The notes under the pieces were generated by a model. It did no database searches. It was not told the DNA's origin and was given only the letters and a program-made list of their open reading frames with translations. A DNA stretch of 64,000 bases from Enterococcus faecium (lineage in GTDB: Bacteria; Bacillota; Bacilli; Lactobacillales; Enterococcaceae): assembly GCF_029023785.1 (NCBI RefSeq), contig NZ_CP118955.1, forward strand, positions 1,610,501 through 1,674,500, in the 5' to 3' direction. Positions 41,667 to 63,275 of the stretch are shown in pieces. The position numbers and the translations under genes are program-made. Each line of letters opens with the position of its first letter. Within the stretch, counting starts at the first letter, position 1.

Positions 41667-41679
41667 AATGACCCCTCCA

Positions 41680-41940: not shown

Positions 41941-41961
41941 TACTTTCCCACCATTTCAATG

Positions 41962-43323: not shown

Positions 43324-43395
43324 AAATAAACCTTCTTTCTTTCGAAATATAGTAAATAAAACTATGAACCAACTTTTTTATCCAACAATCCTCCT

Positions 43396-43695
43396 TTACT
43401 GTACTAACTCTTTGATACTGTCATAAATAGGTTCTACACCCATTCCAGTTAAAAATGGAATTCCTGGAAATACTTCAATACCCAAATCTTTTGCTTGTTC
43501 AAGTACTTCCTCATCAGGTTGTGCGACATACACATAGATTCCAGCAGTTAGAAGCTCATTTTGAATCGATTTGTAATCAACTGCTTCTACAGGAAATGCG
43601 ATGCCGTCATCCTCTAACATACTTTGGATCTTACTAGCGATTGTCTGACTCGTTGCTACTCCACTTCCACATGCGACAATTAACCGATTTTTCAT
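43396..43695 (-). CDS. PTS galactitol-family enzyme IIB
   Basis: 99 residues, cytosolic. The phosphocysteine is Cys9 in LIVACGSGVATSQTIAS, the hallmark of the GatB/LacB-like fold. Normal length. It accepts phosphate from the EIIA of the same operon and passes it to sugar at EIIC. RBS AGGAGGAAG; 12 bases after EIIA. Confidence 0.92.
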   Translation of the reverse strand: MKNRLIVACGSGVATSQTIASKIQSMLEDDGIAFPVEAVDYKSIQNELLTAGIYVYVAQPDEEVLEQAKDLGIEVFPGIPFLTGMGVEPIYDSIKELVQ

Positions 43696-43707
43696 TTTTT
43701 CTTCCTC

Positions 43708-44166
43708 CTAAATATAATTTGTAATAAGTTCGTATATGTTTTGCGGTGTTTCTTGTTTCTTATAATTTTCCACGAATGTTTCATCCATGAATAAATTCAT
43801 AAACGCTTGAAGTAATCCTACTTGTTCTTTTGGTTCTTTGATTCCTAAAAAAAATAGATTTTCTACAGTCATTTCCTGACTATCCCCCATTTGATAAAAA
43901 TAAATTGGGTTCTTCAGCTGCATAACAAAAACAAATGGCTTTTCGACATATTCACATTCCGAATGTGGCAGCGCGATATTTAAATACTTAGTAATCAATC
44001 CAGTAGGAAATTCTCTTTCTCTTGCAATCAGTCCATTCAAATAATTCTCATTGACGTACCCCATTTTTTCTAATCGTTGTGCAGCGATTAAAAAAGCTTC
44101 TTCTTTATTTTTTACTTCTACCGCTAATTGAATCAAACTAGGAACGAACATCTCTTTATATTTCAT
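43708..44166 (-). CDS. PTS fructose/galactitol-type enzyme IIA
   Basis: 152 residues of the EIIA-2 fold. The phosphohistidine is in LNIALPHSECEYVEKP; LIAREREFPTGL is the preceding conserved block. First gene of the minus-strand operon EIIA-EIIB-EIIC-small protein-aldolase. AGGAGGAGG precedes the ATG. It faces the DeoR gene across 223 bases that contain a cre-like site. Confidence 0.92.
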   Translation of the reverse strand: MKYKEMFVPSLIQLAVEVKNKEEAFLIAAQRLEKMGYVNENYLNGLIAREREFPTGLITKYLNIALPHSECEYVEKPFVFVMQLKNPIYFYQMGDSQEMTVENLFFLGIKEPKEQVGLLQAFMNLFMDETFVENYKKQETPQNIYELITNYI

Positions 44167-44261
44167 TCCAACCTCCTCCTTTTTGATTAAGTTTGTTAAT
44201 TTATTGTTCTACTAAGTTCATCTTTGTTTTACAAGAACATTATATTTCTGTTAGTTTGTTT

Positions 44262-44275
44262 TGTCAACGCTTTCA
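44262..44275. promoter_or_regulatory. cre-like CcpA site in the divergent gat/deoR control region
   Basis: TGTCAACGCTTTCA matches TGNAANCGNWNNCA with one mismatch. It sits between the two divergent units and suggests glucose repression of one or both. Confidence 0.6.
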
Positions 44276-44389
44276 AAAGAAATTTATTTTGTTAAATTTG
44301 ATCTACTTGAAAATAAAATCGTTTATCTATATAATTAAGAAGAACAAAGTCGAACAAAAATTGACTTTTATGTTAAAGGAGTAATTCAT

Positions 44390-45181
44390 ATGCTGAAAAA
44401 AGAAAGACAAGAACGAATCATTACGTTATTAGAGAAAGATTTTTATTTAACTAATTCAGAAATCGCTAACAAATTAGGCGTATCAGAAATGACCATACGC
44501 CGAGATGTCACTGAATTAGCAAAAAAAAATAAAGTAAAAAAGCTATATGGTGGCGTTGAACGAAAGGAACCTTATAATCGAGAACTATCGACTCAAGAAA
44601 AGATTGATACGAATGTAGCCGAAAAAAAATATATTGGTCAAGTCATGAACAGTATGATTCCCGATAATTCTACTATTTATGTCGGTGCTGGAACAACGAT
44701 CCTATATGCACTCCCTTTCATTCAAAAGAAAAATCTATTTGTAATTACAAATAGTTTGATTGCTTTCAACTATTTAAAGAATCATACAAGTTATCGAATT
44801 TTACTTACTGGTGGCGAATTTTCTCCTATTACAGAAGAGTTCATTGGGGAAGTTGCAGAAAGATCTTTTGAAAGTTTGAATGTCGATATCTCTTTCGCTG
44901 CAACAAACGGCATATTTGATAACAATGTGACAACCGCTCAATTTATTGAGGGAAATATTCAGAACGCAGCGCTCAATGCAGCAAAAATCAAATGTATTGT
45001 TGCAGATTATTCAAAATTAAATAAATCAGATGTCTATACTTTTAGAAAATTAACCGATTTTGATTATCTAATAACCGATAATCATTTATCAAAACAAGAT
45101 TTCCATCATTATTCAAAATACTTAACCATATTAAAGGAGCCAAAAAATGATACTGACAATCACGATGAACCCATCCATTGA
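44390..45181 (+). CDS. DeoR-family sugar operon regulator
   Basis: 263 residues. N-terminal helix-turn-helix (NSEIANKLGVSEMTIRRDVT) and a C-terminal phosphosugar-sensing domain (IYVGAGTTILYALPF, ITNSLIAFNYL, LLTGGEFSP). Such proteins repress sugar operons until a phosphorylated intermediate binds. It is divergent from the gat-type operon and overlaps the kinase gene by 35 bases, so both the PTS operon and kinase are likely targets. AAAGGAG precedes the ATG. Confidence 0.9.
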   Translation: MLKKERQERIITLLEKDFYLTNSEIANKLGVSEMTIRRDVTELAKKNKVKKLYGGVERKEPYNRELSTQEKIDTNVAEKKYIGQVMNSMIPDNSTIYVGAGTTILYALPFIQKKNLFVITNSLIAFNYLKNHTSYRILLTGGEFSPITEEFIGEVAERSFESLNVDISFAATNGIFDNNVTTAQFIEGNIQNAALNAAKIKCIVADYSKLNKSDVYTFRKLTDFDYLITDNHLSKQDFHHYSKYLTILKEPKNDTDNHDEPIH

Positions 45182-46100
45182 TTCCATTTATTTTACAAAA
45201 CACTTTGAATTAGGTACGATGACACGCTTTGCTTCTCCGGTACGCTATGTAGGCGGCAAGGGAATCAATTGCGGACGAGCTTCTGCTCTACTAGGTTCAT
45301 CAGTTATTTTAACGGGGTTTTTGGGCGGTTATTTTGGCAGTATGATTCAAGATATGCTGAAAAATGAAAATTTGTTTGATTTGCATTTTTTACCTATTGC
45401 AGAAGAATCAAGAGGTGCCGTCACGATCATGCATGATGATGAAACGCAGACAGAGCTAGTGGAAGCTGGTCCTGAAATAGCAGATACTACTATCAAAAAA
45501 TTAATGAATGATATCAAACAAATCAGTAAAAATAATTACCTTTCAGTCATTACAATAAATGGTTCTGTTAACAATCCAGATCCCTTTTTGTATGCTAAAT
45601 TATTACAATATATCAAAGAACAAATAGATCCTTCCACCTATATATTAATGGATATATCTGGACAACATCTCCGTGAAGTCTTAGCAAATAAGTATAAACC
45701 GATGTTCATCAAACCTAATATCCATGAGTTTTCAGATATCATCCATCAAAAAATTACTCAAAAAAGCGACATAAAACACCATCTAAAAACAAATCCACTA
45801 TTTAAAGATATTGATGTTATCATGATTTCTTGCGGCTCGTATGGTGCAGTAGTCAAAGTAAAAGAAGAATTTTGGAATGTTGAGATCCCTAAGATTCCTA
45901 TCATTAATACAACAGGCTCTGGGGATGCCACTGTTGGAGGTTTTGCTCATTCATTAGAACAGAATTATCCTTTAAAAGAATGTGTAAGGTACGCAATGGC
46001 TTGCGGCATGTCGAATGCACAGCAATCAGAAGTCGGGAAAGTTATTCCAGCTGATGTAAAAAATTTAGCAAAAAGCATTAAAATCACAGAAATGAAATAA
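45147..46100 (+). CDS. PfkB-family ketose-phosphate kinase (1-phosphofructokinase/tagatose-6-P kinase type)
   Basis: 317 residues, ribokinase fold. MILTITMNPSIDSIYF and GGKGINCGRASALLGS are the family N-terminal signature, and NTTGSGDATVGGFAH carries the catalytic aspartate. It phosphorylates a hexose monophosphate to a bisphosphate. With the class II aldolase on the other side it can complete a ketose-phosphate route. AAAGGAG inside the deoR end supports the overlapping start. A repeat block follows. Confidence 0.88.
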   Translation: MILTITMNPSIDSIYFTKHFELGTMTRFASPVRYVGGKGINCGRASALLGSSVILTGFLGGYFGSMIQDMLKNENLFDLHFLPIAEESRGAVTIMHDDETQTELVEAGPEIADTTIKKLMNDIKQISKNNYLSVITINGSVNNPDPFLYAKLLQYIKEQIDPSTYILMDISGQHLREVLANKYKPMFIKPNIHEFSDIIHQKITQKSDIKHHLKTNPLFKDIDVIMISCGSYGAVVKVKEEFWNVEIPKIPIINTTGSGDATVGGFAHSLEQNYPLKECVRYAMACGMSNAQQSEVGKVIPADVKNLAKSIKITEMK

Positions 46101-50383: not shown

Positions 50384-52306
50384 TTATTCATAACTAGACA
50401 ACAACGTTAAAATCTCTAGTGGATGATTGGATTGCATCAACTGTGCCATTTGTTCTGGTTGCTTTTCTAAATAATGAATAACAGAAAAAATTTTTTTGAA
50501 CTCTGCATGTTTCAAATCCTTTCTCTTTATTGCTAACAGCAGTACGATACGTATCTGTTCCCCATGCCATAGGATCGGTTCTTTCATTGTTGCAATAGAA
50601 ATCATCGAATGTTTTACATACAGCGGATTACCGTGAGGAATCGTTACAAATGGTGCCACTCTAGTACTGGCGTGACGGTCTCGTTCCAAGACAGAATCGA
50701 CGAATTCCGGCTCCACATAATGATGTTCTGCTAAGACATTCCCCATAAAGTTTAAAATATCTACTGGGTCAGTCCATTCAAGCTGAGGAAAGATCAAAAA
50801 TGGATGAGTAAAGCTTGCTAGATCAAACGTTTTTTTCTTCTTGATAGGTACATGTTCCAGCATATATTTTGTCAAATAGGCCAGATCAGTTTCTGTGATC
50901 ATGGGTGAAATCTCGATTACTGGAATATTTTCATGTTTAAACGGTAATGTAGCCAAAATAAAATCAACAGGTGGAAAGTCTTCCCTCTCTAGTTCTGGCT
51001 TATATTCAATTAAATCTATAATCGTTAATTCAGGAAGTTCTCTGTTCAGCCGTGCTTCAAGAAAAGTAGCCATAGCTTTCGAATATTCACTAACTAAAAC
51101 GGCTTGGTATCTTCTACTTTTCTGATGTTTGTGTCGCTCGATCGCCGCTTGAAAATGGATCGTTAAATAAGCTGTCTCATCTTGCGGAACATAAAAATTT
51201 TCTTTCTCAAAATAATCTTCTAGAATCAACTGTAAAACTAAAAAAAGTTGTGTGTACGTACTAAATACGTTTTTCGTCAATGGATTAGAAATCTGCAAGC
51301 CATAATGGAGTCGAAAATAGGTCGAAGATAAATGAGACCTTAAGTTTTGTTTCAGTAACTGATCTTCTTTCAATGAATAACCTAAAAACTGCTCCACTTG
51401 TACAATCAAATGATCAGCAAGTGCGCTAGATTCCTTTTGAAAACGTGTGGCTGCTTGTGAATTTGTAAAAAGATTGGCGATACGCAAAGCCAGATAATTG
51501 ATTTCATCAGGAGAAAATTCAATTGGATAGATGGTGGCTAGTTTTGCTAATATTTGACTACTTAACTTTTGTGCTTGGGTGTGTTCCACGACTTCGTTTT
51601 CGTCTTTACTTAATTTCACTTTCTGGTACTGTTTCATTCGCTCGAGCATAAAGTAGATGTGAATCTCCACACTAGCCAGTCCATTCGGCTGTTCTAAATG
51701 ATTTTCATAAAAAACATCTTGTAATGTATGTTGGATAACTTTTAATGTATCTTTAGCGAAGAATTCTTTCAACGACGGACTTTGCGGATCTTCTTTCTGC
51801 ATATTTCGTAATGTCTTAACAAGCAACTGTCTTTTTTCTTGTTCATCGCCTTTAAGAAAAGTTCCTAGTTTTGTTTTGGATACTAGCTGTAAATGGTGAT
51901 ACTCAAAAAAGCTTTGCAACTCTGTCAATTCTTTACGAATCGTACGTTTTCCAACATATAGTTTTTCTGAAAGTTCTTCAAGACTAAATCCGTCTTTTGC
52001 TACTAGCAGATGGAAAATCAATAACTGACGAAGCTGTTTTTTATCCATTTCTGTTTGAGTCTCTTCATTAAGCGCTCGTTTCAGTTGTTCCCTTTCGTGA
52101 GGCAGACCATTCAACAAGATACCTGTACCTTTTTTTCTTTCAAACATTAAAGGCAGATGTTTGTCTCTCAACCAAGTTTCAATGGTATTCAAATCGCTAT
52201 GAATCGTTCTTTCTGACACATGGAAATGCTCTGCTAGCTTTTTTGTTGTTATATAATTATTGTTCTCACTTAATTGATAGATCAAAGATTGCTGACGCTG
52301 ATTCAT
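50384..52306 (-). CDS. PRD-containing PTS transcription regulator (MtlR/LicR type)
   Basis: About 640 residues from the ATG at 52306. Two N-terminal helix-turn-helix domains (TTKKLAEHFHVSERTIHSDL, SLEELSEKLYVGKRTIRKEL), two PRD domains (about 180-400), an EIIB-like segment (410-480) and a C-terminal EIIA domain with the histidine in VTIPHGNPLYVKHS. Activity is tuned by phosphorylation from HPr and the PTS. It starts 87 bases after the fructose-type PTS gene on the same strand and probably activates it. Confidence 0.88.
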   Translation of the reverse strand: MNQRQQSLIYQLSENNNYITTKKLAEHFHVSERTIHSDLNTIETWLRDKHLPLMFERKKGTGILLNGLPHEREQLKRALNEETQTEMDKKQLRQLLIFHLLVAKDGFSLEELSEKLYVGKRTIRKELTELQSFFEYHHLQLVSKTKLGTFLKGDEQEKRQLLVKTLRNMQKEDPQSPSLKEFFAKDTLKVIQHTLQDVFYENHLEQPNGLASVEIHIYFMLERMKQYQKVKLSKDENEVVEHTQAQKLSSQILAKLATIYPIEFSPDEINYLALRIANLFTNSQAATRFQKESSALADHLIVQVEQFLGYSLKEDQLLKQNLRSHLSSTYFRLHYGLQISNPLTKNVFSTYTQLFLVLQLILEDYFEKENFYVPQDETAYLTIHFQAAIERHKHQKSRRYQAVLVSEYSKAMATFLEARLNRELPELTIIDLIEYKPELEREDFPPVDFILATLPFKHENIPVIEISPMITETDLAYLTKYMLEHVPIKKKKTFDLASFTHPFLIFPQLEWTDPVDILNFMGNVLAEHHYVEPEFVDSVLERDRHASTRVAPFVTIPHGNPLYVKHSMISIATMKEPILWHGEQIRIVLLLAIKRKDLKHAEFKKIFSVIHYLEKQPEQMAQLMQSNHPLEILTLLSSYE

Positions 52307-52392
52307 AATGTGCAGAAACTCCCTTCTAAATAAAAAATCGATCATGATAACACATCTATTATGTCTCATCACGGTCGATTTTTCATCTTATG

Positions 52393-54333
52393 TTACATTT
52401 CGCTTAATAATTGGTGAACTGCTGTTTTATCTGGCGCTTCCATCAGTGCTTGACGGAAGTCATCATCCATCAATTTACGTGATAGACGTTGCAGTATTTT
52501 CAAGTGCATATCACCTTGGCTGTTTTCAGGTACAGCAATCATAAAGATCATATGTGCAGGTTTTCCATCTAAAGAATGCCAATCTACCCCAGATTGACTT
52601 CTGGCAAATGCCACTGTTGGTTTAAGAACATAAGCTGATTTTCCATGTGGAATAGCAATCCCCATACCGATTCCCGTTGTACTTTCATGTTCTCTATCAT
52701 AGATGACTTCTTTAAATCTGGTTTTATCTGTGATCGCCGCTGTTTTTTCTAAACGTTGGACTAAATCTTCGATTACTCCGTCTTTTGTTGTTGCTGTTTC
52801 ACCTAAAACGATTGCTTCATCTGACATAATATCCGTGATAGAATCAAAAGTTTCAGTTTTCGTATAAACATCACTTGTTTCAGTCTCTGATAGATCTGCT
52901 ACTGTCACACCATTTGCTGCAGCAACCGCAGTTTGTTGTAATGTCGGTTTAAGGATTCTTAACATTAGCACGGTTACAGCAATACCAGCAATCACTGCTA
53001 CAAAAAACATGGCTACGTGATCCACTGCTCCTAAAACCGCTACGATCGGACCGCCATGAGCTACATGATCTGTCACTCCTGAAAGCATCGCGATCACACT
53101 TCCTGTCATTGCCCCGATTACAATGCTTGGAATCACCCGTAGTGGATCTGTTGAAGCAAACGGAATAGCGCCTTCTGTAATCCCAAACAGTCCCATTGCT
53201 AAGGACGCCTTACCAGCTTCTCGTTCTGTTTTCGTAAATTTGGTTTTTAAAATCAATGATGCCAGCCCCAATGCTAATGGAGGGATACAGATAGCTACAG
53301 CAATTGGCCCCATAATGGAATAATTGCCTTCTGCAATCAAGCCAGATCCGAACAAAAAGGCTACTTTATTGAACGGCCCCCCCATATCAAAAGCAATCAT
53401 CGCTCCTAAGATCATAGCTAGAACAATTTCGCTTCCTCCTTGCATCCCTGCTAAAAAGTGAGTCAATGAACTAAATAGAAGAGCTACTGGTTCTCCAATA
53501 ACATAGATAAACACAAAACCAACTGCCAATGATCCTAAAATTGGGATAACAATAATTGGCATGATCGATTGTAAAGCTTTCGGTACTCGCACTTTCTTGA
53601 TTCCTAAAGCAATGAATCCTGCTAAAAATCCAGTGATGATCCCGCCTAAGAATCCCGCATTCGCATCACTACCATATAATGCTCCGTTTGCCGCTAACAT
53701 CCCACCAACAAATCCAGGAACAAGTCCTGGACGATCTGCAATACTTTGCGCAATAAATGCAGATAGAATTGGAACCATCAACCCCATAGCGATACTTCCG
53801 ATACTATTCATCGTTGCCCAAATCGTTCCTTCTGGTATCTTGATCCCTTCAGGTGTAGCTGTTCCTCCTAATGTTAAAGAAATCGCGATCAATAACCCTC
53901 CTGTAACTACGAAAGGTACCATGTACGAAACGCCATTCATCAAACTCTTATAGATTTTTTTACCTAAATTTTCTGATTCACTTTTATTTTCGGAAGAAAT
54001 AATTGCCTCCGTACTTTTATAGACTGGCGCTTTTCCTGCTAAAATATCTCTCACCAACTCATCTGCATGGTGGATTCCTTCTTGCACACCTACGGTTATC
54101 AAAGGTTTACCGCCGAATCGTGATTTATCTATTTTAGTATCTGCTGCGATGATTACACCAGCTGCTTCTTCGATATCTCTTGCAGTCAATTCATTTTCAA
54201 TACCGATGGAACCATGTGTTTCGACTTTTACCTCGGCGCCAACTGCTTTCCCCGCTTTCTCTAAGTTTTCTGCTGCCATGTATGTATGGGCAATACCAAC
54301 TGGACAGGATGTGATTGCAATAATTTTTTTCAT
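52393..54333 (-). CDS. PTS fructose-family enzyme IIBCA
   Basis: 646-residue fusion in the order IIB-IIC-IIA. IIB (1-100) has the phosphocysteine in AITSCPVGIAHTYMAAENLE-type motif (Cys10). IIC (about 130-460) has ten membrane helices with GGPFNKVAFLFGSGL and ITEGAIPFASTDPLRV. IIA (about 500-646) has its histidine in GIAIPHGKSAYV. It imports fructose or a related sugar such as a mannosyl compound. No 1-phosphofructokinase lies beside it, so the substrate may not be fructose. It heads a two-gene unit with the PRD regulator. Confidence 0.9.
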   Translation of the reverse strand: MKKIIAITSCPVGIAHTYMAAENLEKAGKAVGAEVKVETHGSIGIENELTARDIEEAAGVIIAADTKIDKSRFGGKPLITVGVQEGIHHADELVRDILAGKAPVYKSTEAIISSENKSESENLGKKIYKSLMNGVSYMVPFVVTGGLLIAISLTLGGTATPEGIKIPEGTIWATMNSIGSIAMGLMVPILSAFIAQSIADRPGLVPGFVGGMLAANGALYGSDANAGFLGGIITGFLAGFIALGIKKVRVPKALQSIMPIIVIPILGSLAVGFVFIYVIGEPVALLFSSLTHFLAGMQGGSEIVLAMILGAMIAFDMGGPFNKVAFLFGSGLIAEGNYSIMGPIAVAICIPPLALGLASLILKTKFTKTEREAGKASLAMGLFGITEGAIPFASTDPLRVIPSIVIGAMTGSVIAMLSGVTDHVAHGGPIVAVLGAVDHVAMFFVAVIAGIAVTVLMLRILKPTLQQTAVAAANGVTVADLSETETSDVYTKTETFDSITDIMSDEAIVLGETATTKDGVIEDLVQRLEKTAAITDKTRFKEVIYDREHESTTGIGMGIAIPHGKSAYVLKPTVAFARSQSGVDWHSLDGKPAHMIFMIAVPENSQGDMHLKILQRLSRKLMDDDFRQALMEAPDKTAVHQLLSEM

Positions 54334-54566
54334 TTTCCTACCGCCTTTCTACATTTATAGTATATAAAAACGGTTTCTTTTTATTAAGCACAAAATGATT
54401 CCGTAATAACTGAAATTCTTGGAATAAATAGAAATTTCGCTAAAAAAATTGATATACGATTTATTATGTTGAATAAAATAATATTGGAAAATCTTACATT
54501 TCTGTACTTCTGCTTACGTACATCTAAATTATTATCTACATTAACAATTTCCGTAATTAATTATAA

Positions 54567-54606
54567 AAAGCTTATTCCATTTAATTTCATTCTGGAATAA
54601 GCTTCT
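54567..54606 (-). terminator. Terminator of the nine-gene SFCGS/DUF4310/Dga operon
   Basis: AAGCTTATTCCA / TGGAATAAGCTT with a 13-base loop; on the minus strand TTTTTAT follows. 15-50 bases past the aldolase stop. Confidence 0.88.
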
Positions 54607-54620
54607 TATTTTCTAATGAG

Positions 54621-55361
54621 TTAGTGAATAATTTTTTTTACCATGCTTAATAGTATCTTTACGTCTCCTATACGCGTATCTCCTGTTTCTTTATCTATAA
54701 TTGAACTATAAACATGAGGAATCACTTTTTTTACACCTGCATCGATTGCAATTTTCAGAATTTCTTCAAAGTTTGAAAGATCAATTCCTCCTGTTGGCTC
54801 TAAATAGAATTCATATTTTGCGCAAGCTTCCGCAACTGCTTTAAATTCTTCCCTATGTGCTAAGCCTTTCATCGGGAAATACTTGATTGAAGTACCTCCC
54901 ATGTCTTGCAGCATTTGAATGGCAGTTTCAATAGGCACTTCAGCTGCTGGCGCTTGTGAACTTAACGGACCTGTAGCAATATTGACATAGCCGATCTTAC
55001 CTGTTGGTGAAACCAATCCATTGATGACTGTATCATTTTGGCCCAATAAAGCACGAGAAGTCCCCACGCCAGTAAATACTTGATTGACATGTTGTGGTTG
55101 TAAAACCCCAGATAAACGCGAAACTATCTGACTTTGGTTTGGATCTCCAGCGCCTAATCCAACTGACAACGCATTATTGGTTGCGTCTTGGTACCTTTTC
55201 ATATCTTCGATTGCTGCTTCATCGCTAGCATAATTTTTCGATAGCACACCTAGCACGACATGCCCTTCCGCTGCTTCATAGCATGCTTTTGCATTTTCAA
55301 CTGAATGAGCTAATACATTTAAACATACACGATTTTTATAATAATTTGGGATAACTGACAA
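54621..55361 (-). CDS. dgaF: DgaF-like 2-keto-3-deoxy-6-phosphogluconate aldolase
   Basis: 246 residues of the KDGP aldolase family found in the glucosaminate (dga) pathway of Salmonella. It cleaves KDGP to pyruvate and glyceraldehyde 3-phosphate. The Schiff-base lysine is probably in GGTSIKYFPMKGL, and FYLEPTGGIDLSNFEEIL closes the barrel. TTG 55361 is the start, with GGAGGC seven bases upstream. Last gene of the operon, 12 bases after dgaE. Homologues sit in the same order in E. faecalis (as I recall, EF0829-EF0839). Confidence 0.85.
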   Translation of the reverse strand: MSVIPNYYKNRVCLNVLAHSVENAKACYEAAEGHVVLGVLSKNYASDEAAIEDMKRYQDATNNALSVGLGAGDPNQSQIVSRLSGVLQPQHVNQVFTGVGTSRALLGQNDTVINGLVSPTGKIGYVNIATGPLSSQAPAAEVPIETAIQMLQDMGGTSIKYFPMKGLAHREEFKAVAEACAKYEFYLEPTGGIDLSNFEEILKIAIDAGVKKVIPHVYSSIIDKETGDTRIGDVKILLSMVKKIIH

Positions 55362-55373
55362 TTTAAAAGCCTC

Positions 55374-56465
55374 CTACATGATTTCTCTCAATCTTTTTAT
55401 AATTTTTTCCATTTCGTTTTGGCTGACGGAACGAATGTCGAACTCAATGATTCCGTTATTTGCTTGATATTCTCGGGTGTAGACTGCTGGATTTCGTGCT
55501 TTTAATTCCTGAATGACTTCTTTCGCACTTTTATCGCCATTAATCGTTACACTTGCTCGATAAATATCTCTGCCGGCACCATCTTGAACTATTTTCGCTG
55601 AAAGGTCAGGAAGTTGATTGATTGCGTTAACAAAAGGCGCTAATCGTTGCTTCATGGAGTCACCGGATTCGCTCCCATTTTTTAAATAATCTTCTAGTGC
55701 CTGGGTAAAGCCTAAAATATTATCTTTACCGATTTTCATTGCTCGGCCAATACCTTTAGACTGTAGCCGAATCCATTGAATATACTTCTTTTTTCCTATG
55801 ACCAGTCCGGCACTCGGACCTTCGATTGCTTTTGCACCAGAGTAAATCACTAAGTCAACGCCCATTTCGCTATATTTGAATAAATCTTCTTCCGCAGCTG
55901 CATCAACGATCAATGGCAAACGATGAGCTTTGGCAACTTCTACCATTTCTGCCACCGTCAGCATACTTTTCTGAACTGCATGATGACTTTTAATATATAG
56001 AAGCGCAGCAGTTTTTTCCGTAATCATCATGGAAACATGTTCCGGTGTACACATATTTGCATAGCCAGCTTCTATGACTTTTCCTCCACCTTGAGCAACC
56101 ATTACTTCAACCGGTGTCCCATAATCTACATTATGTCCCTTAGGTATGATGATTTCCCGTCTAGCGATTTTTTCTGTATAGGGATGATAGACATGGTACA
56201 TGTCGCCTTGTCCGATTAAAGCAGCAACAGATTGAGCAATCCCTGCTGAAGCAGAAGAAACGATTTGCGCATCTTCCACTTTCAGTAATTGAGAAAGATA
56301 AGCGCCGGTTTTGATGGCAAGATCACTCATCTCAAAAAAATGCTCGCCTCCAAATCGTTGTGCTGCTAGGACACTTTCAGATACCTTAGAAACCCCTAGG
56401 ATCGTCATTTTTCCCGATGCATTAATGACTTCTTTTAAATCAAACTTTCCATAGCTAATTGTCAT
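55374..56465 (-). CDS. dgaE: DgaE-like PLP-dependent amino-sugar-acid ammonia-lyase
   Basis: About 363 residues, fold type I PLP enzyme of the SelA-like/DgaE group. DgaE converts 2-amino-2-deoxygluconate 6-phosphate to KDGP plus ammonia. The PLP lysine is in IYSGAKAIEGPSAGLV, and IVSSASAGIAQSVAALIGQG and LIVDAAAEEDL shape the cofactor site. The ATG at 56465 has GGAGGCG upstream; it overlaps the amidohydrolase end by 11 bases, so translation is coupled. Substrate could be a stereoisomer of glucosaminate. Confidence 0.85.
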   Translation of the reverse strand: MTISYGKFDLKEVINASGKMTILGVSKVSESVLAAQRFGGEHFFEMSDLAIKTGAYLSQLLKVEDAQIVSSASAGIAQSVAALIGQGDMYHVYHPYTEKIARREIIIPKGHNVDYGTPVEVMVAQGGGKVIEAGYANMCTPEHVSMMITEKTAALLYIKSHHAVQKSMLTVAEMVEVAKAHRLPLIVDAAAEEDLFKYSEMGVDLVIYSGAKAIEGPSAGLVIGKKKYIQWIRLQSKGIGRAMKIGKDNILGFTQALEDYLKNGSESGDSMKQRLAPFVNAINQLPDLSAKIVQDGAGRDIYRASVTINGDKSAKEVIQELKARNPAVYTREYQANNGIIEFDIRSVSQNEMEKIIKRLREIM

Positions 56466-57561
56466 ATATGACGCCTCCAATAATTGTTTTAATCGGTAAA
56501 ATTTGTTCTTTAGCTATACGTGTAAATCCGTTGGAATCTTTCAATTCCTTTTCATTTTCAACAATCTCAAATATCGTCAAATCTGCATCATAATTGACAG
56601 CTAACTGGCCCTTATTCTTCAAATGAAAATTCCGTGCAGGAACTGCTGTAACTTTTTCAATGATTTCTTCCCAAGAATAGCCGACTACCCTCAATTTTTC
56701 TAAAGTAGTTGCTAGATCAAAAACTGGGCCATTTGTACGATTGCGGATGTAGATATCCGTACTAATAGAGGTAGCTTTCATTCCTGCTTTTAGTGCGGTT
56801 TCTGCCACATGGAAATTAAAGCTATCCGTCCCATGTCCAATATCAAAGACAACACCATTATTGTAAGCATCCCAGACAAAGTTTTTAATTTGATCTGTCT
56901 TTGGATCTAAAATACCGTTTGGTTTTCCATTAAAACAATGGGTCAATACATCGCCTCTTTCCATTCTTGACAATACTTCTTCTAACTCAGGAGGTGCAGA
57001 ACCGATATGAACCATCAATGGCAGATCATTGTTTTCTGACTGGATTTTTTTAGCTAATTCTAATGGCTTAATGCCATTTTCACCAACAACTGTCTTACTC
57101 ATTCTCGCTTTGATCCCGACAATAAATTCCGGCAGTTCTGCTAACGCAGTACTTACTAGATCTTCTTGAATCTTTGTTAGATCAGCAAGTTCATCTTGTT
57201 TGACAATGCCCCATTTAGAGATATTCATTAGCGCATACACATTTGTCTTGACCGATTTCGTCAATTGATAAAATTCACGGATGTTTTCTGCTCCCGTAGT
57301 TCCAGCATCAATGACCGTCGTCACACCTTTTTCGACCCCTATCTGATCAGGATAGTCATAATAAAGACTCATCTTTTCATAGCAGTGGACATGATCATCG
57401 ATCCACCCAGCGGATAAATAATACTTTCCCTCCAAGTCAACTACTTCTTGCGCCGGCTGATTTATTTCTGCTGCAACTGCTTTAATCATGCCTTTTTCTA
57501 TAGCGACCTCTATTTTAGATCCATCAACCAACCTTCCATTTTTAATCAAAGTATCAAACAT
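56455..57561 (-). CDS. Amidohydrolase-superfamily metallo-deacetylase
   Basis: 368 residues, TIM-barrel metal hydrolase. Metal ligands visible: HxH in GWIDDHVHCYEK, the probably carboxylated lysine in FIVGIKARMSK, histidines in LMVHIGSAPP and LTHCFNGKPNG, and the aspartate in SISTDIYIRN. The family is named after E. faecalis EF0837 and Aeromonas AHA_3915. In this operon it likely removes an acyl or carbamoyl group from the amino-sugar acid before DgaE acts (inference). Dihydroorotase is excluded by context. It lies between DUF4310 and dgaE. Confidence 0.85.
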   Translation of the reverse strand: MFDTLIKNGRLVDGSKIEVAIEKGMIKAVAAEINQPAQEVVDLEGKYYLSAGWIDDHVHCYEKMSLYYDYPDQIGVEKGVTTVIDAGTTGAENIREFYQLTKSVKTNVYALMNISKWGIVKQDELADLTKIQEDLVSTALAELPEFIVGIKARMSKTVVGENGIKPLELAKKIQSENNDLPLMVHIGSAPPELEEVLSRMERGDVLTHCFNGKPNGILDPKTDQIKNFVWDAYNNGVVFDIGHGTDSFNFHVAETALKAGMKATSISTDIYIRNRTNGPVFDLATTLEKLRVVGYSWEEIIEKVTAVPARNFHLKNKGQLAVNYDADLTIFEIVENEKELKDSNGFTRIAKEQILPIKTIIGGVIYDN

Positions 57562-57579
57562 TTAATGACCCTCTTTCTA

Positions 57580-58257
57580 TTAATTTACTGCCGGGAAGAT
57601 TGCTCCTAAAATCATTGCTCCTAAAATAGCACCTCCAGCAATTGGTTTTTTCCAAGCATAGAATCCTAGTGCTCCTAATGTAGCGCCAATGCCGATTGGA
57701 ATAGATGCTGCACACGCGCTTAATATAATTAATGGACCCAAAAAACGTCCAGATGAATTTCCTGCCCCCATCATGACGTCAGCACCAAAAGTGGAATTTG
57801 ATTGATTGATCGTAAATTTACGAATCAAGACAATGATGCCACCAACAATCAAACCTAGAACCAAACCAGTCAATAAAGAGAGTGCAAAATTATCGATTGG
57901 TGCCGCTATTTTCATACTTAAGAGAATTGCTGGTACCCCAATTCCGATCCCAGTTAGGATCGAACCGCCTAAGTCCAAGATCCCAACTAAAGAGCCTTCT
58001 AAAATTCTGGCAAATAAGAAACTAGCACCAAACGCTGCCGCTGCGCCATAGGATCCGCCATCCAGCCCGGCTTTTAACATCGCCACGATCGAAACTTCAT
58101 TGAATGCACCCACACCATACATCACATACATGTGTGTTCCTGCAAATACAGCAGCGGACATAATTCCTACGATTAGCGGAAAAGACCAGTCTGCAAACCA
58201 AAAGCTCTTTTGCCGCTTTGCTTCTAATACTTTTGCTTGTTCTTCTGTTGTCTCCAT
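57580..58257 (-). CDS. DUF4310 membrane protein
   Basis: 225 residues with about six transmembrane helices after a charged 20-residue N-terminus. Glycine-rich helices such as LDLGGSILTGIGIGVPAILL and IPIGIGATLGALGFYAW suggest a permease-type packing. I recognise it as DUF4310 (family of E. faecalis EF0833 type), known only in this gene cluster. With DUF4311 it probably forms the membrane part of a transporter. It starts 10 bases after DUF4311. Confidence 0.82.
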   Translation of the reverse strand: METTEEQAKVLEAKRQKSFWFADWSFPLIVGIMSAAVFAGTHMYVMYGVGAFNEVSIVAMLKAGLDGGSYGAAAAFGASFLFARILEGSLVGILDLGGSILTGIGIGVPAILLSMKIAAPIDNFALSLLTGLVLGLIVGGIIVLIRKFTINQSNSTFGADVMMGAGNSSGRFLGPLIILSACAASIPIGIGATLGALGFYAWKKPIAGGAILGAMILGAIFPAVN

Positions 58258-58267
58258 GATTCTCCTC

Positions 58268-59047
58268 CTATTTCACACTAAAGATGTTGTGCAAGTTATC
58301 AAGCCAATTAGGCACTTGAAGCTGGAAGCTCTTGATCATTTCCATATCAAATCCACGGAAAAATCCACTGAAAATAAATAATAAAACAATAGCGATCATC
58401 ATGCTCTTCGTGACGCGATTCCAACCGCTCTCATCGACGCCTTTACCAATCAAGATTCCTAGAACAACACCAGGTACCGCATTTCCCATAATCAATTGCG
58501 CGATACCACCAAAAAGAGTGCCCCAAAAACCAGTTCGTTTCCCTGCGTCTAAAGCTGCCAACCAAAAAATAACTGGCATTACTGTATTGATCAGAATCGT
58601 CGCTGCTGGTACCAAAACGGAAACCGCCGTCACTTGTAACGCCTCTGGAATTGCTGCAGCTGTTGTGTTTAAGAAGGCTACCACCACTGCCCCGATAACC
58701 GCTCCAATGATCCCCATTTTTTTCGGATCATGCATGGTCTGGGTGACATCTTTGTTTTTTGCTAGAAGTGCTGCCGCTGCCCAATTGGGAATGATTCGAT
58801 GCGTCACATCTTGTGTGAATGCACCAGCACCAACTGAAGAAGCCCATGCATTAAAGAAAAAGCCTAAACCAAATGAAAAATGAGAAGCTGGATCACCCAT
58901 GCAGGCATTCATTTCGCCTAATGTTCTAAAAGCTCCTAAACCTTGTGTATTAGGTGCATGAAACATTCGAGCTGCCCCGACAGATGCTGCAAAACCAAGT
59001 AATCCCCCGATAATGACCGATTTGACTAGAATGATTACGAAATCCAC
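58268..59047 (-). CDS. DUF4311 membrane protein
   Basis: 259 residues, about six to seven helices. Conserved-looking soluble stretches between helices (MFHAPNTQGLGAFRTLGEM, CMGDPASHFSFGLGFFFNAW) include histidines that could bind substrate or phosphate. DUF4311 occurs with DUF4310, DUF4312 and SFCGS proteins. No sequence likeness to known EIIC or EIID proteins is visible to me. Member of the operon, 28 bases after DUF4312. Confidence 0.82.
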   Translation of the reverse strand: MDFVIILVKSVIIGGLLGFAASVGAARMFHAPNTQGLGAFRTLGEMNACMGDPASHFSFGLGFFFNAWASSVGAGAFTQDVTHRIIPNWAAAALLAKNKDVTQTMHDPKKMGIIGAVIGAVVVAFLNTTAAAIPEALQVTAVSVLVPAATILINTVMPVIFWLAALDAGKRTGFWGTLFGGIAQLIMGNAVPGVVLGILIGKGVDESGWNRVTKSMMIAIVLLFIFSGFFRGFDMEMIKSFQLQVPNWLDNLHNIFSVK

Positions 59048-59075
59048 GTTATTCTTTCCCCCTTATGATTCAAAA

Positions 59076-59426
59076 TTAGATTTTTTTAGTTACAAATGGA
59101 ATGGCAATCCCATTTGGATCTTCAATCATTTGCTGGCTGAACGATATGTCTGCCAATTTTATTTCTGTTACAGCCACAGTAACAGAGAGTTCGACTTCAT
59201 AGCTAATACGTTGCCGTGGGAAGAAGAAAAATAGAAAGCGTTCTGTGTATTTGTTTTCGACCGCCTTTAAAATATCCACATTGACTGGTTCGATTCGCAA
59301 TAATACGTTTGATTGTTCCATTATTTTGTTTTGAATTTCTGCTAACGCTGATGCAAAAGCATGTTGCTTTGTTTCCCCTTTACCGGAGACGATAACTTTT
59401 TGCTGAATTGTCTTTTGAACGCTCAT
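59076..59426 (-). CDS. DUF4312 protein
   Basis: 116 residues, probably soluble or membrane-peripheral. It has alternating beta strands (VIVSGKGETKQHAFASALAE, YEVELSVTVAVTEIKLAD) and a hydrophobic FLFFFFPRQR patch near residue 68 that could touch the membrane. I know the family only from this cluster; no function is described to my knowledge. Spacing to SFCGS is 15 bases. Confidence 0.78.
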   Translation of the reverse strand: MSVQKTIQQKVIVSGKGETKQHAFASALAEIQNKIMEQSNVLLRIEPVNVDILKAVENKYTERFLFFFFPRQRISYEVELSVTVAVTEIKLADISFSQQMIEDPNGIAIPFVTKKI

Positions 59427-59441
59427 TTCATGTCCCTCTTT

Positions 59442-59798
59442 CTATTTTCCATGCTTTTTGATAAATTCTTCTGTCAGACGTTTCCCTAATTCCTCTTGAT
59501 CCATAAAGCCGAAACCTAGAACAGTTTTGCCATCCTTGATAGCTGTGATCCCTTCTTCAATCGAACGCATACCATGTCGTTCTGGATAGCCATATTTTGT
59601 TGCTGCTGTTAATGCACCTGCACCACCACTACCACAAAAAGAGATACCCATATCTGCATGCTCTTGTTGCATCACATCGCCCAAACGCATATCTGCCCCC
59701 ATTCCTGGTACGACAACTGCTTTTCCACCAGCTGCTTCTACCCCTTTGGCCACATTTTGTCCTTTACCCATACGGTCTGCAATAACTACTTTAATCAT
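59442..59798 (-). CDS. Glycine-rich SFCGS-family protein
   Basis: 118 residues, cytosolic. The family hallmark GISFCGSGGAGALTAATKYG (about 52-71) places one cysteine in a glycine loop, and VVIADRMGKGQNVAKGVEA and GMGADMRLGDVM precede it. The CGSG loop recalls the phosphocysteine loop of GatB-type EIIB (ACGSGVATS at 43670 in this window), though it is not at the N-terminus. A phosphocarrier role is a hypothesis only. First structural gene after the regulators. RBS AGGAGGAA. Confidence 0.82.
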   Translation of the reverse strand: MIKVVIADRMGKGQNVAKGVEAAGGKAVVVPGMGADMRLGDVMQQEHADMGISFCGSGGAGALTAATKYGYPERHGMRSIEEGITAIKDGKTVLGFGFMDQEELGKRLTEEFIKKHGK

Positions 59799-59817
59799 GA
59801 TTGTTTCCTCCTAAATA

Positions 59818-60150
59818 TTAATTATTTTTTGCTGTTTCAAAATGAATCGACAAAACATATATTTCATCATCGGTTAAATTACCGATACTTCTAACTATTT
59901 CATCAGAAATAGTTATGGCTTCTTTGGATACTTCTTTGAACAAATCCCGATCGACTACGGGAATCGTTTCCTTTCTTTGAGAACGTTTCAGCATCTCATT
60001 CAAGTGATTAATTAGAATGGTCCACTGCAACTCGGTTGGTACAATAGCATGTTCTACTAATCGCTCTTCAATTAGATCAATCACTTGTTTTAACTTTTCC
60101 CGATTTTGACTTTCCTCGATAATTTTTAAAGCCTCGTCTGACATTTTCAC
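59818..60150 (-). CDS. Stand-alone PRD-domain protein
   Basis: 110 residues, a single PTS-regulation domain without DNA-binding part. HLNEMLKRSQRKETIPVVDR and DDEIYVLSIHFETAKNN carry the helix pattern and a histidine that could be phosphorylated. The start is GTG 60150, overlapping the stop of the antiterminator gene (TAGTG) and served by AAGGAGCG; ATG 60144 is an alternative. It may modulate the neighbouring regulator or sense PTS flux in trans. Confidence 0.78.
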   Translation of the reverse strand: MKMSDEALKIIEESQNREKLKQVIDLIEERLVEHAIVPTELQWTILINHLNEMLKRSQRKETIPVVDRDLFKEVSKEAITISDEIVRSIGNLTDDEIYVLSIHFETAKNN

Positions 60151-62012
60151 TAACTTGACGCTCCTTCTTTTATATATGAGAATAATGCACTGATTTCTGA
60201 CTGATTGATTCCTAAATTATTTTCTGCAAAAACTGCTTCGATTTTTCCTACCAGTGTTCCTTTGTCTAAAATAATCTGGTCTGCTTGACGACCTTCTGCC
60301 ATATATTGTTGATCAAATGTGATACGATGAACCATTAAGAATACATGAAGCAAAAAAGCTTCTCGATATTCTTGGATCAATTCTGCTTCCAAAATGACAA
60401 GTAAACGTTCATAAATCGTATAAGCTTTCAAAATCAATTCCTTGCTAAAGTCTTCTAAAGTATCTTTATTGATGGACGTTTCTCTAAGATTCAAGTTATG
60501 CCTTTCCTGCTGATTGGAAGAAGCAAGTATTTTTTTTATTATTTGTTGAATTTTTTTCAAGTCCTGTTCAGTGGGTAATGGATGGACTTTGATGAAAGGA
60601 CGATCGATGCCATTGATTGGAAAAATACTAATCACCAAATCAGGATCTTTGGTGGCAATCATTTCTTGCGCATTCAATACTGAAGCAAATGCTACGATAG
60701 TGATATTATTTAATTCTTCATTGATCTTTTGCTTGATCAGACTAGTCACACCCAACCCTGTTGAACAAATGTAGACGGCTCTAACGCTTCGTAGATCTTC
60801 TTCTCTTTCGTAGGAAACCAAAAAGTGTAAGGCAATATATGCCACGAAAGAATCATTGATCAGAATATTTTGTTCACTTATTTCTTGTCGAACTGCTTGC
60901 TTGATCGCATCAAATAATTCCGGGTATTTCTGCTTGATATCTTCTTTAAAAGGATTATATTCATTGACAAATTTTTTCTTTCTCGATAATCGCATGGATA
61001 AATGAGCATACAGATTCGTCAACAATTGTGGATCTTGATAAAAAGAATGGTTGATTGCTTTACTTACTTTATAAATCACATTCTCAACTAGTTTCATGAC
61101 GTCTTGCTGGTGAATCGTGTCGAATGTATCACTATAGATATAATGATATTCATCCTCGAACAGTGGCAACTGATAATAATCAAAGACCTGCTGCATGACG
61201 CGATAAGAAAGATCGTTTTTGTCTAATTCTTGTTCAGCAACCAATTGATAACGACCAATCGTAGCCTCTTTGCGTAAGCGAACGGTAGCAATTGTCACTC
61301 GAATCAGAATATTTAGTAATTCCGCGTAATTCAGTTTCTCTAGATTTTCAAATTCCAGTAAGTGCCGCATTCGAATGATTACTTGATTAAATACCTCTTG
61401 GATAGGTGTAGCAGTAGCAGAATACATTTCAAAGTATTCAGTCTCACCGCCATTCAATAACAATGACATTAATTTATAAATGTCATAATCCGTGAACTCT
61501 TTTTGAAGAATCTCTTCAATCGTTAATCGAACTAGACGTTCTTCTCCTGTGATCCAAAAACCCTTTCGCGCCTGACGATTCAAGGTCAATCCTTCCTTAA
61601 GAAAATTATTTTCCAGCACATCTAAATCATTCATGATCGTATCTTTGCTGACATCTAATGCGTTGGCCATTTTCATTCCAGTAATAGCTTCTTTTGTTAC
61701 TAAAAGCATAATTAGTAAACGTTTGATTCGGAGACTTTGATCTGCAAATATTTCAAAACGATTAACATCCATCAATTCGCTTTTTAATTTGATTCGATCA
61801 GAGCTACTAATATTCATCCAAATTCCCTGACTACGTTTGCTATATAGGACTTGCTTCCGCTCATTCAGCCACTCTCTTATATCATCTAGATCGTATTTTA
61901 TCGTCCGAACACTAACATTTTCTTTTTCAGCCAACTTTTTGATTGTTACCGGTTCAGACATTTCCACCAAGTAAATCAAAAGCTGCCTTTCTCTTTTTGT
62001 TAGCTGCTGCAT
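60150..62012 (-). CDS. BglG/MtlR-type regulator of the SFCGS/Dga operon
   Basis: About 620 residues. Two helix-turn-helix domains (PVTIKKLAEKENVSVRTIKY, MANALDVSKDTIMNDLDVLE), two PRDs (about 180-390) and an EIIB-like domain with the cysteine in AVYICSTGLGVTSLIKQK. A short C-terminal helical domain replaces a full EIIA. Its presence shows the operon answers to PTS phosphorylation. ATG 62012 has AAGGAGAG upstream (the frame opens six bases earlier). It is the first gene after the promoter at 62130. Confidence 0.88.
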   Translation of the reverse strand: MQQLTKRERQLLIYLVEMSEPVTIKKLAEKENVSVRTIKYDLDDIREWLNERKQVLYSKRSQGIWMNISSSDRIKLKSELMDVNRFEIFADQSLRIKRLLIMLLVTKEAITGMKMANALDVSKDTIMNDLDVLENNFLKEGLTLNRQARKGFWITGEERLVRLTIEEILQKEFTDYDIYKLMSLLLNGGETEYFEMYSATATPIQEVFNQVIIRMRHLLEFENLEKLNYAELLNILIRVTIATVRLRKEATIGRYQLVAEQELDKNDLSYRVMQQVFDYYQLPLFEDEYHYIYSDTFDTIHQQDVMKLVENVIYKVSKAINHSFYQDPQLLTNLYAHLSMRLSRKKKFVNEYNPFKEDIKQKYPELFDAIKQAVRQEISEQNILINDSFVAYIALHFLVSYEREEDLRSVRAVYICSTGLGVTSLIKQKINEELNNITIVAFASVLNAQEMIATKDPDLVISIFPINGIDRPFIKVHPLPTEQDLKKIQQIIKKILASSNQQERHNLNLRETSINKDTLEDFSKELILKAYTIYERLLVILEAELIQEYREAFLLHVFLMVHRITFDQQYMAEGRQADQIILDKGTLVGKIEAVFAENNLGINQSEISALFSYIKEGASS

Positions 62013-62036
62013 TATCATCTCTCCTTACATTGCTAA

Positions 62037-62050
62037 TATAAGCGTTTTCT
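62037..62050. promoter_or_regulatory. Weak cre-like site before the operon
   Basis: TATAAGCGTTTTCT, two mismatches to the CcpA consensus, just upstream of the regulator start. Confidence 0.35.
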
Positions 62051-62073
62051 AAACTAACGACAATATGAAATGT

Positions 62074-62093
62074 TTGCACTTAACTAAGTGCAA
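62074..62093. promoter_or_regulatory. 20-bp palindromic operator candidate
   Basis: TTGCACTTAACTAAGTGCAA has nine-base perfect arms around AC. It lies 30-50 bases downstream of the predicted start of the nine-gene operon and 62 bases before its first codon. Confidence 0.6.
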
Positions 62094-62129
62094 CTTATAG
62101 CTTTTTAACTAATACTACAGAGTTTATCT

Positions 62130-62158
62130 ATTATAAAGACGACTACATGTACTGTTAA
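62130..62158 (-). promoter_or_regulatory. Promoter of the nine-gene operon
   Basis: Minus strand TTAACA, 17-base spacer, TATAAT (five of six and six of six consensus bases). Predicted start near 62123. Confidence 0.72.
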
Positions 62159-62235
62159 AAAGCGTTTTTTATTGCACTAAGTCGTAATATAAATAATCAA
62201 ACGCTTTTTCAAATTTTTTAAATCGCCGTTTGTAT

Positions 62236-63275
62236 AATTAAGCGAGACAAATAAAAAAGCCATTTATGTTACACTCAAATTGTAATACCCGCTAAAGCAT
62301 ACAAGGAGAGTGAACATAAATGACTTATACCCATCTTACACCAAACGAGCTTGTAATGATAGAAGCATATTTTCATCAAGAAACTCCGGTTGCTATCGTT
62401 GCGAAGCAGCTTAAACGTGGACGCCAAACAATTTACAATGTCTATAACTTTCTCAAATGTGGTGGAACAGCACTTGAATACTTTGAACAATACAAAGAAA
62501 ATAAGCGACGTTGTGGGAGAACCGAAATCATTTTTCCTGCTGAGGAAAAAGAATACATTGAAAAAAGATCAACTGAAGGTTGGACCCCAGACGTCATTAT
62601 TGGCCGTGCAGAGCGAACCTTCTCTTGTTCAGTAAGTACCCTCTATCGCCGGTTTAAGACGGGAGAATTCAATGTTTTACATTTACCGATGCAAGGAAAA
62701 CGAAAACCAAATGGTTATAAGGAAAAACGTGGAAAACAGGCATTCAAAAGAAATATTTCTGAACGTAAAAAAGATTATGTCGTTTTCGAAGAAGAATTTG
62801 GACATTTAGAGGGTGATACGATTGTCGGCATCCACCATAAAAGTGCCGTCATCACACTCGTTGAGCGACTTTCAAAAGCCATTATCGCCTTGAAACCAGA
62901 AGGCCGTAAGGCAGTTGATATTGAAAATTCGATTAATGAATGGCTTCAATCCGTACCCAAAAATCTTTTCAAATCAATTACCTTTGATTGTGGAAAAGAA
63001 TTCTCTAATTGGAAAAGTATTAGTAATACGAATGATATTGATATTTATTTCGCAGACCCAGGAACGCCTTCCCAACGGGGATTAAATGAACATTCAAACG
63101 GACTCCTCCGAAAAGATGGACTACCAAAAGAAATGGAATTCAACCAAGTCAATCAAGGATTCATCTCATCCGTTGCGTCTAAAAGAAACCATATCCCTAG
63201 AAAATCACTAAATTACCAAACACCATTAGAAGTTTTTTTGAGTTACGTAAATGGAAAGTTTTGTCTCGCTTAATT
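62236..63275 (+). mobile_element. IS30-family insertion sequence
   Basis: Terminal inverted repeats AATTAAGCGAGACAAA at 62236 and TTTGTCTCGCTTAATT at 63260-63275, with a second inner match CCATTTATG / CGTAAATGG. About 1.04 kb, one transposase gene, resembling IS6770-type enterococcal elements. Ends are set by the repeats; the exact target duplication is unclear. Confidence 0.85.
62320..63273 (+). CDS. IS30-family transposase
   Basis: 317 residues, apparently intact. The N-terminal HTH is HLTPNELVMIEAYFHQ and KQLKRGRQTIYNVYN. The DDE core shows Asp in HLEGDTIVGIHHKS, Asp in SITFDCGKEFSNWK and Glu in RGLNEHSNGLLRKDG, the IS30 signature. CAAGGAGAG precedes the ATG. The end overlaps the right inverted repeat, as usual for this family. 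Confidence 0.93.
   Translation: MTYTHLTPNELVMIEAYFHQETPVAIVAKQLKRGRQTIYNVYNFLKCGGTALEYFEQYKENKRRCGRTEIIFPAEEKEYIEKRSTEGWTPDVIIGRAERTFSCSVSTLYRRFKTGEFNVLHLPMQGKRKPNGYKEKRGKQAFKRNISERKKDYVVFEEEFGHLEGDTIVGIHHKSAVITLVERLSKAIIALKPEGRKAVDIENSINEWLQSVPKNLFKSITFDCGKEFSNWKSISNTNDIDIYFADPGTPSQRGLNEHSNGLLRKDGLPKEMEFNQVNQGFISSVASKRNHIPRKSLNYQTPLEVFLSYVNGKFCLA

Follow-up and report, generated by a model that had tools for sequence, protein, structure and literature searches.

How an operon that encodes neither a kinase nor a recognisable enzyme II of the phosphotransferase system (PTS) might supply substrate to enzymes of the D-glucosaminate-6-phosphate lyase (DgaE) and aldolase (DgaF) families is the question raised by nine genes (54621-62018, minus strand) of Enterococcus faecium. 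They lie in a stretch of 64,000 nucleotides (the window) of contig NZ_CP118955.1 (positions 1,610,501 to 1,674,500, assembly GCF_029023785.1). A preliminary description of the window had proposed that four of the encoded proteins, SFCGS, DUF4312, DUF4311 and DUF4310, may constitute an undescribed phosphorylating transporter. To follow this up, gene content, protein families, the fold of SFCGS, active-site conservation and the distribution of a kinase gene were computed. New are the fold of SFCGS, which in its model resembles ribose-5-phosphate isomerase B (RpiB), the sister relations of two operon proteins to YhfU and YhfY of Escherichia coli, and the complementary distribution of the kinase gene, the last two being the strongest additions.

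The operon and its predicted chemistry

Reading of the open frames and searches with Pfam and NCBIfam models confirmed the operon: all nine genes are intact frames on the minus strand, in the order and with the small gaps or overlaps first noted. The first encodes a PRD-type transcriptional regulator of 622 residues (60150-62018), with helix-turn-helix domains and a PRD (313-400) found by Pfam, and an EIIB-like stretch with a cysteine and a C-terminal PRD-like stretch, both read by eye. It is followed by a stand-alone single-PRD protein (TIGR03582; 59818-60150), a proposed phosphoryl carrier; SFCGS (PF14272/TIGR03577; 59442-59798); DUF4312 (PF14189/TIGR03578; 59076-59426), small, with an invariant aromatic/Arg motif (ExFxFxFxxR) and no conserved His or Cys, and presumably an accessory part; and the membrane proteins DUF4311 (PF14188/TIGR03580; 58268-59047) and DUF4310 (PF14187/TIGR03579; 57580-58257), proposed to be the two halves of a channel. 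The enzymes are an amidohydrolase of the EF_0837 family (TIGR03583; 56455-57561), a proposed N-deacylase, a DgaE-type pyridoxal phosphate (PLP) ammonia-lyase (TIGR01437; 55374-56465), and a 2-dehydro-3-deoxy-phosphogluconate (KDPG) aldolase of the DgaF type (TIGR03581/NF047796; 54621-55361). With the lyase start placed at ATG 56465 (TTG 56480 is also open), the lyase and amidohydrolase genes overlap by 11 bases, the small PRD and regulator genes overlap by 1 base, and the gaps elsewhere are 10-28 bases or short overlaps. These searches found no kinase and no known enzyme II among the nine genes, as had been claimed, and SFCGS and DUF4310-4312 matched no PTS family at E 0.001 in Pfam or NCBIfam, or at E 10 in Pfam with the HMMER filters on.

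The enzymes are likely to catalyse deacylation, ammonia elimination and aldol cleavage, and the amidohydrolase-DgaE-DgaF pathway originally suggested is supported by family models, phosphate-site arginines and the aldolase score. A solved protein of the EF_0837 family (PDB 2ics) matches the amidohydrolase, whose residues D55, H57, H59, K151, H185, H208 and D269 are invariant (85/85 sequences). The lyase is a member of the DgaE family that does not reach the D-glucosaminate-6-phosphate equivalog cut-off (369.7 bits, cut-off 600) and shares 164 identities over 354 aligned residues with PDB 7lc0. According to an excerpt of PMC9529869, R301, 332 and 346 of the solved DgaE lyase are near the 6-phosphate in a docked model; R303, R331 and R345 of the operon lyase align with them. 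Together with His161/His162 and the PLP lysine Lys212, these arginines are conserved in 82-83 of 83 sequences, a count that omits two truncated ones. The aldolase passes the KDPG aldolase equivalog NF047796 (395.4 bits, cut-off 300). On sequence grounds, an N-acyl amino-hexonate would fit as the substrate. For E. faecalis V583, an excerpt of PMC7396535 lists one dgaE and one dgaF gene as duplicated and cites them as required for growth on glucose's amino acid.

Since all eight of its models (TIGR03577-TIGR03583 and TIGR01437) scored above cut-off, the operon can be equated by sequence with the EF_0829-0839/AHA_3910-3917 island of NCBIfam. In species genomes, 348 relatives of DUF4311 were confirmed, and the best 80 of them form the locus set used for counts here; SFCGS-like proteins at E <= 0.001 number 901. 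Carriers include enterococci, lactobacilli, Salmonella, Serratia, Yersinia, Providencia and Aeromonas. DUF4311 was above cut-off in 7 of 398 sampled Bacillota genomes, including that of the window. By tblastn, SFCGS, DUF4312, DUF4311, DUF4310, the amidohydrolase and DgaE are each present in 80/80 loci and the aldolase in 78/80, the remaining two running into a contig end. The small PRD gene is immediately upstream of SFCGS in every locus, and a PRD regulator was found by tblastn in 74 (30 upstream and 44 downstream of SFCGS) and not in 6. An arrangement kept this widely is far beyond chance. With the regulator and small PRD gene set aside, the commonest other neighbour within 4.5 kb occurs in 32 loci. 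In Providencia stuartii, SFCGS and DUF4312 form a single 220-residue frame (L027:9296-9958), either a fusion or a frameshift.

Relation of SFCGS and the small PRD protein to YhfU and YhfY

The preliminary description had taken SFCGS for an EIIB-like phosphocarrier with a single cysteine. The cysteine, C55 in a glycine-rich loop, is indeed the only one and is invariant in 91/91 sequences. The proposed fold was not supported: the structure model (pLDDT 93) matched RpiB, RpiB-type chains top both fold-match lists, and no EIIB is among the best 50 matches listed in each; modelled SFCGS is RpiB-like and probably not EIIB-like. A lack of HPr-dependent phosphorylation together with a fold unrelated to phosphocarriers had been named as what would speak against the proposal, and with respect to the fold this is what was found.

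SFCGS aligned over nearly its full length with the Pfam model of DUF2620/YhfU (PF10941) and fell short of its cut-off (14.1 bits, E 0.056; cut-off 25 bits). Despite this miss, home-built profile hidden Markov models (HMMs) match in both directions, which identifies the two, at the level of profiles, as sister families: the SFCGS HMM matches 9/9 YhfU sequences (E 8e-8 to 0.002) and the YhfU HMM matches SFCGS (E 1e-7). No non-relative in this 32-protein set scored better than E 0.44. The hhalign value for the pair is 94%, versus <1% for controls. Both proteins share the Cys/Gly loop.

The small PRD protein (PF00874, 35.6 bits) keeps its histidines H49 and H103 in 81/81 sequences. Its HMM matches YhfY in 5/5 cases (E 2e-9 to 1e-5) and not the PRD regulator (E 0.69), which makes it, by the same kind of comparison, the sister of E. 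coli YhfY. The first PRD histidine is present in all five YhfY sequences, and the second is missing, as judged by eye, from that of E. coli. In E. coli, yhfY and yhfU belong to one cluster, where they are not adjacent and the accompanying membrane protein and enzymes are different ones; the two genes are direct neighbours in 6/7 yhf clusters of Bacillota, and in the seventh an unlabelled small protein stands alongside. The membrane protein YhfT showed no detectable similarity to DUF4310 or DUF4311 in profile and hhalign comparisons. Since YhfY and YhfU are homologous to the operon proteins and YhfT shows no such similarity, the PRD protein and the RpiB-fold protein appear to be a pair common to two systems that differ in membrane proteins and enzymes. 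This pairing, as traced by the profiles, is the main new finding. The pair also occurs as a natural PRD-SFCGS fusion of 249 residues (L115; Pfam E 2e-9 and 7e-60).

An extra gene of ~370 codons, not present in the E. coli operon, was observed beside php in 5/7 Bacillota yhf clusters (L118:8555-9673, L119:8341-9453, L120:8012-9124, L122:7529-8608 and L123:11910-13049).

Distribution of a kinase gene

The claim that a kinase is missing was strengthened by comparing loci. A PfkB gene, closest in family searches to the KDPG aldolase/sugar kinase fusion family and to kinases of 2-dehydro-3-deoxygluconate (KDG), directly follows the aldolase in 5/5 amidohydrolase-lyase-aldolase clusters without the DUF module nearby (L158-L162). 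In contrast, among the 76 of 80 DUF-module loci that extend 1 kb beyond the aldolase, it does so in only three (L005, L008 and L020). The kinase is thus complementary to the module, as if the module replaced it. Only these three of the 80 loci combine a MupG-type glycosidase with a close EIIC; the EIIC downstream in L017 is a distant one (27% identity). One reading is that in the MupG/EIIC loci the acid, released by a PTS disaccharide importer and the glycosidase, carries no phosphate and depends on the kinase, but that it arrives already phosphorylated where the DUF module supplies it.

Locus L114 has the regulator, PRD, SFCGS and DUF4312-4310 genes without the enzymes, which in this genome are found elsewhere (L158) with an EIIC, a MupG-type glycosidase and the PfkB kinase. 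Standing apart from the enzymes, the L114 module indicates that SFCGS and the PRD protein travel with the membrane genes. The PfkB gene was not found in clusters L111, L113, L115, L116 and L157 either. Among more distant lyase clusters, L163 has a mannose-family PTS and L164, L166 and L167 have FGGY kinases. In L161, a glucose-type EIIBC, an EIIA, a SIS-domain MurQ-like protein and a MupG-type glycosidase surround the amidohydrolase-lyase-aldolase-PfkB set (L161:6124-15177).

A proposed phosphorylating importer and its alternatives

We hypothesize, tentatively and with somewhat less than even confidence, that the products of the operon take up an N-acyl amino-hexonate, such as N-acetyl-D-glucosaminate or one of its epimers, with PTS-dependent phosphorylation and deliver it as the 6-phosphate, and that RpiB-fold SFCGS is the presumed carrier; this is the best of the readings considered. 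DUF4310 and DUF4311 would form the membrane path, with DUF4312 as an accessory. The small PRD protein would receive phosphate from HPr on a histidine and pass it to Cys55 of SFCGS, which would phosphorylate the substrate. The amidohydrolase would strip the acyl group, the DgaE-type lyase would eliminate ammonia to give KDPG, and the DgaF-type aldolase would cleave KDPG to pyruvate and glyceraldehyde-3-phosphate. What we infer here is the transport itself, the way and the sequence in which phosphate is passed on, and the precise substrate. In a bolder form, which we consider doubtful, these proteins would represent a new PTS branch with a PRD as EIIA, an RpiB-fold cysteine protein as EIIB and a membrane pair DUF4311/DUF4310, or YhfT, unrelated to EIIC, in two sister lineages (this operon and yhf).

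A connection of the PRD proteins with the PTS is supported by the conserved PRD histidines and by the presence of enzyme I in 15/15 genomes with DUF4311 or YhfT, versus 118/299 sampled, although enzyme I seems common in those families. In G159, genes for HPr and enzyme I lie on the same strand as the cluster, 0.3 kb beyond its final gene, and in E. ratti ptsHI is just upstream. Overall, of the phosphorylating transporter first proposed, the enzymes, the PRD/PTS connection and the missing kinase are supported, and the EIIB-like SFCGS and the EIIC-like DUF4311 are not.

Several observations weigh against the importer. SFCGS carries an isomerase fold, not that of any known phosphocarrier. The membrane proteins had been regarded as a possible EIIC-like channel, and no EIIC relation was obtained: for DUF4311, modelled as nearly all helix with moderate quality (pLDDT 80, pTM 0.58), neither sequence nor fold comparison detected one, and no fold match rose above noise in this moderate model; for DUF4310, covered by sequence only, no relatives were found, EIIC included. 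Enzyme I seems to be family-wide, which makes its co-occurrence weak evidence, and its nearness to the operon in 2/95 loci is about the level of chance at 10-kb flanks (our estimate is ~0.7). The five lyases beside the kinase gene, and most of the more distant ones, also keep the phosphate-site arginines, which are therefore no proof that a phosphorylated substrate arrives. The kinase contrast has its own limits: Fisher tests gave 3e-8 and 1e-5, but L159-L162 are one family and the DUF4311 proteins of the sister loci L005 and L008 are 95% identical, and with so few lineages the true strength is below these values. In both L111 and L113, a neighbouring unit encodes a kinase of the DUF1537 type. 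In four clusters from Bacillota, the gene right behind that of the aldolase encodes a haloacid dehalogenase (HAD)-type hydrolase, as assigned by Pfam for L111:12669-13469 and L116:6046-6840 and by eye for L113:6062-6862 and L115:5578-6384. Finally, an in-frame TAG interrupts DUF4311 in G274, the genome with the PRD-SFCGS fusion (L115:9342-10883), and this cluster may be decaying.

The alternative that survives best, and that we regard as rather unlikely, is that DUF4310-4312 act as a conventional secondary transporter or channel. Its substrate would then enter unphosphorylated and be deacylated and deaminated to KDG, a KDG kinase from another locus would produce KDPG, and SFCGS and the small PRD protein would be regulatory. 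The ong pathway of Pseudoalteromonas, in which N-acetyl-D-glucosaminate from chitin cut by lytic polysaccharide monooxygenase (LPMO) is deacylated and deaminated to KDG, provides a precedent, running through GlcNAc1A, GlcN1A, KDG and KdgK (excerpt of PMC9537276), and the shared arginines of the kinase-side lyases agree with it. However, the PfkB gene that follows the aldolase in all five clusters without the module nearby is not found there in 73/76 module loci (the genomes were not searched elsewhere for a KDG kinase), and in L114 the PRD protein and SFCGS stay by the membrane genes, away from the enzymes.

It is unlikely that SFCGS is instead an enzyme or sensor that isomerises or binds a phosphorylated sugar acid through Cys55 and signals to the PRD protein and the regulator, while the membrane proteins transport independently. 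The RpiB fold and the PRD-SFCGS fusion speak for this alternative. The RpiB model PF02502 (cut-off 24.7 bits) did not match SFCGS of the window (Pfam at E 10, HMMER filters on) but gave sub-cut-off scores to relatives in G055 (23.7 bits) and in the SFCGS part of the L115 fusion (17.7 bits). A weak hhalign alignment (E 0.018, versus E 0.014 for a PRD control) places the RpiB CGTG loop, with its cysteine, over SFCGS CGSG and thus Cys55. As a separate observation, no RpiB/LacAB gene was found by PF02502 in the genome of the window (G000), although 94/101 sampled genomes have one. RpiB is characterised by Asp-His after strand 1 and by C-terminal phosphate-binding arginines. In SFCGS, as viewed by eye in the sequence, Asp-Arg seems to stand in place of Asp-His and the C-terminal end comes early. 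The catalytic His region and C-terminal extension of the RpiB/LacAB family were not recognised in it by eye. Against this alternative, the protein is ~30 residues shorter than RpiB. The pathway requires no isomerase, and YhfU, although it shares the Cys and Gly loop, lacks by eye the charged residues that follow the first strand of SFCGS.

Within the phosphorylating importer, the more specific proposal that its substrate is N-acetyl-D-glucosaminate from the oxidised end of LPMO-cut chitin is improbable, a chitin-derived substrate being possible if weakly supported: the chemistry is similar to that of the ong pathway, an LPMO_10 gene is present in the genome of the window (G000:C1:1766717-1767205), and the MupG-type glycosidase and cellobiose/lactose-family EIIC beside the same enzymes (L005, L008, L020 and L158) would suit an oxidised disaccharide, but LPMO_10 occurs in 1/7 DUF4311 genomes, 1/5 with the lyase but without DUF4311 and 1/68 others, which leaves chitin as one possible source only.

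Signals and neighbouring genes

Of the two transcription signals first described, the terminator is well supported: a hairpin at 54567-54606 (minus strand) has a 17-bp stem, -20.6 kcal/mol and z -7.0 when 54560-54612 is folded, and 0/200 shuffles were equally good. The candidate sigma-70 promoter, TTAACA-17-TATAAT (62158-62130, minus strand), is the best of 27 matches (11/12) in a consensus scan of 54000-63000; since shuffles gave 26.8 matches, it is plausible rather than established. Upstream of the regulator, 62040-62209 contains repeats of the AAGCGTTT type, both direct and inverted, that may be operators. An IS30-like transposase gene (named by eye; 62320-63273, plus strand) is directly upstream and divergent, ~160 bases from the candidate promoter.

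Just past the terminator is a fructose-family EIIABC gene (52393-54333, minus strand), which together with a second PRD-type regulator, recognised by eye, spans 50384-54333 (minus strand); tblastn at E 1e-30 found no counterpart of this EIIABC in the 80 related loci, a set that includes some cut short. A separate cluster at 40914-46100 encodes, as read by eye, a GatC-type PTS subunit, an EIIA-like protein, a DeoR-type regulator, a PfkB-type kinase and an aldolase-like protein.

Comparison with known systems

The island is widespread, yet its transport genes bear DUF names only. Its NCBIfam models cover the same gene set as the operon, are mostly labelled 'conserved hypothetical' and give no function or mechanism for the DUF genes. 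Literature searches, judged on titles and abstract openings and with subscription journals mostly outside their scope, listed no account of what the DUF genes or yhfT/yhfU do, and the yhf genes of E. coli K-12 are named only as uncharacterised or putative. If the proposed mechanism is true, it would be a new way to phosphorylate a sugar acid on uptake and a new role for PRD domains, which would serve as transport phosphocarriers and not just as targets of regulation, and it would mean that a sugar-isomerase fold was co-opted to carry phosphate. The link to YhfU and YhfY makes the system testable in E. coli K-12.

With PTS enzyme II complexes the operon would share, by proposal only, a carrier chain, a small soluble subunit with an invariant Cys, a membrane pair and PRD regulation, whereas none of its subunits matches any enzyme II family. 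The Salmonella dga pathway (excerpt of PMC9529869) has the same lyase and aldolase families and the same expected chemistry, but there a mannose-family PTS is present, of which the operon has none; the operon adds an amidohydrolase, and its lyase is outside the equivalog. The ong pathway (excerpt of PMC9537276) shares an N-acyl aminohexonate, deacylation, deamination and then KDPG, and differs in the fold-type III PLP enzyme OngC, SSS-family inner-membrane transport and the action of KdgK after deamination; the suggested amino-sugar-acid route, possibly including oxidised chitin ends, is unlike it. The E. coli yhf operon (yhfZYXW-php-yhfUTS) has a single 434-residue membrane protein, YhfT, no DUF4312, and other enzymes and regulator, but shares the YhfY and YhfU homologues, with a membrane protein, a phosphotriesterase-family hydrolase and PLP enzymes nearby.

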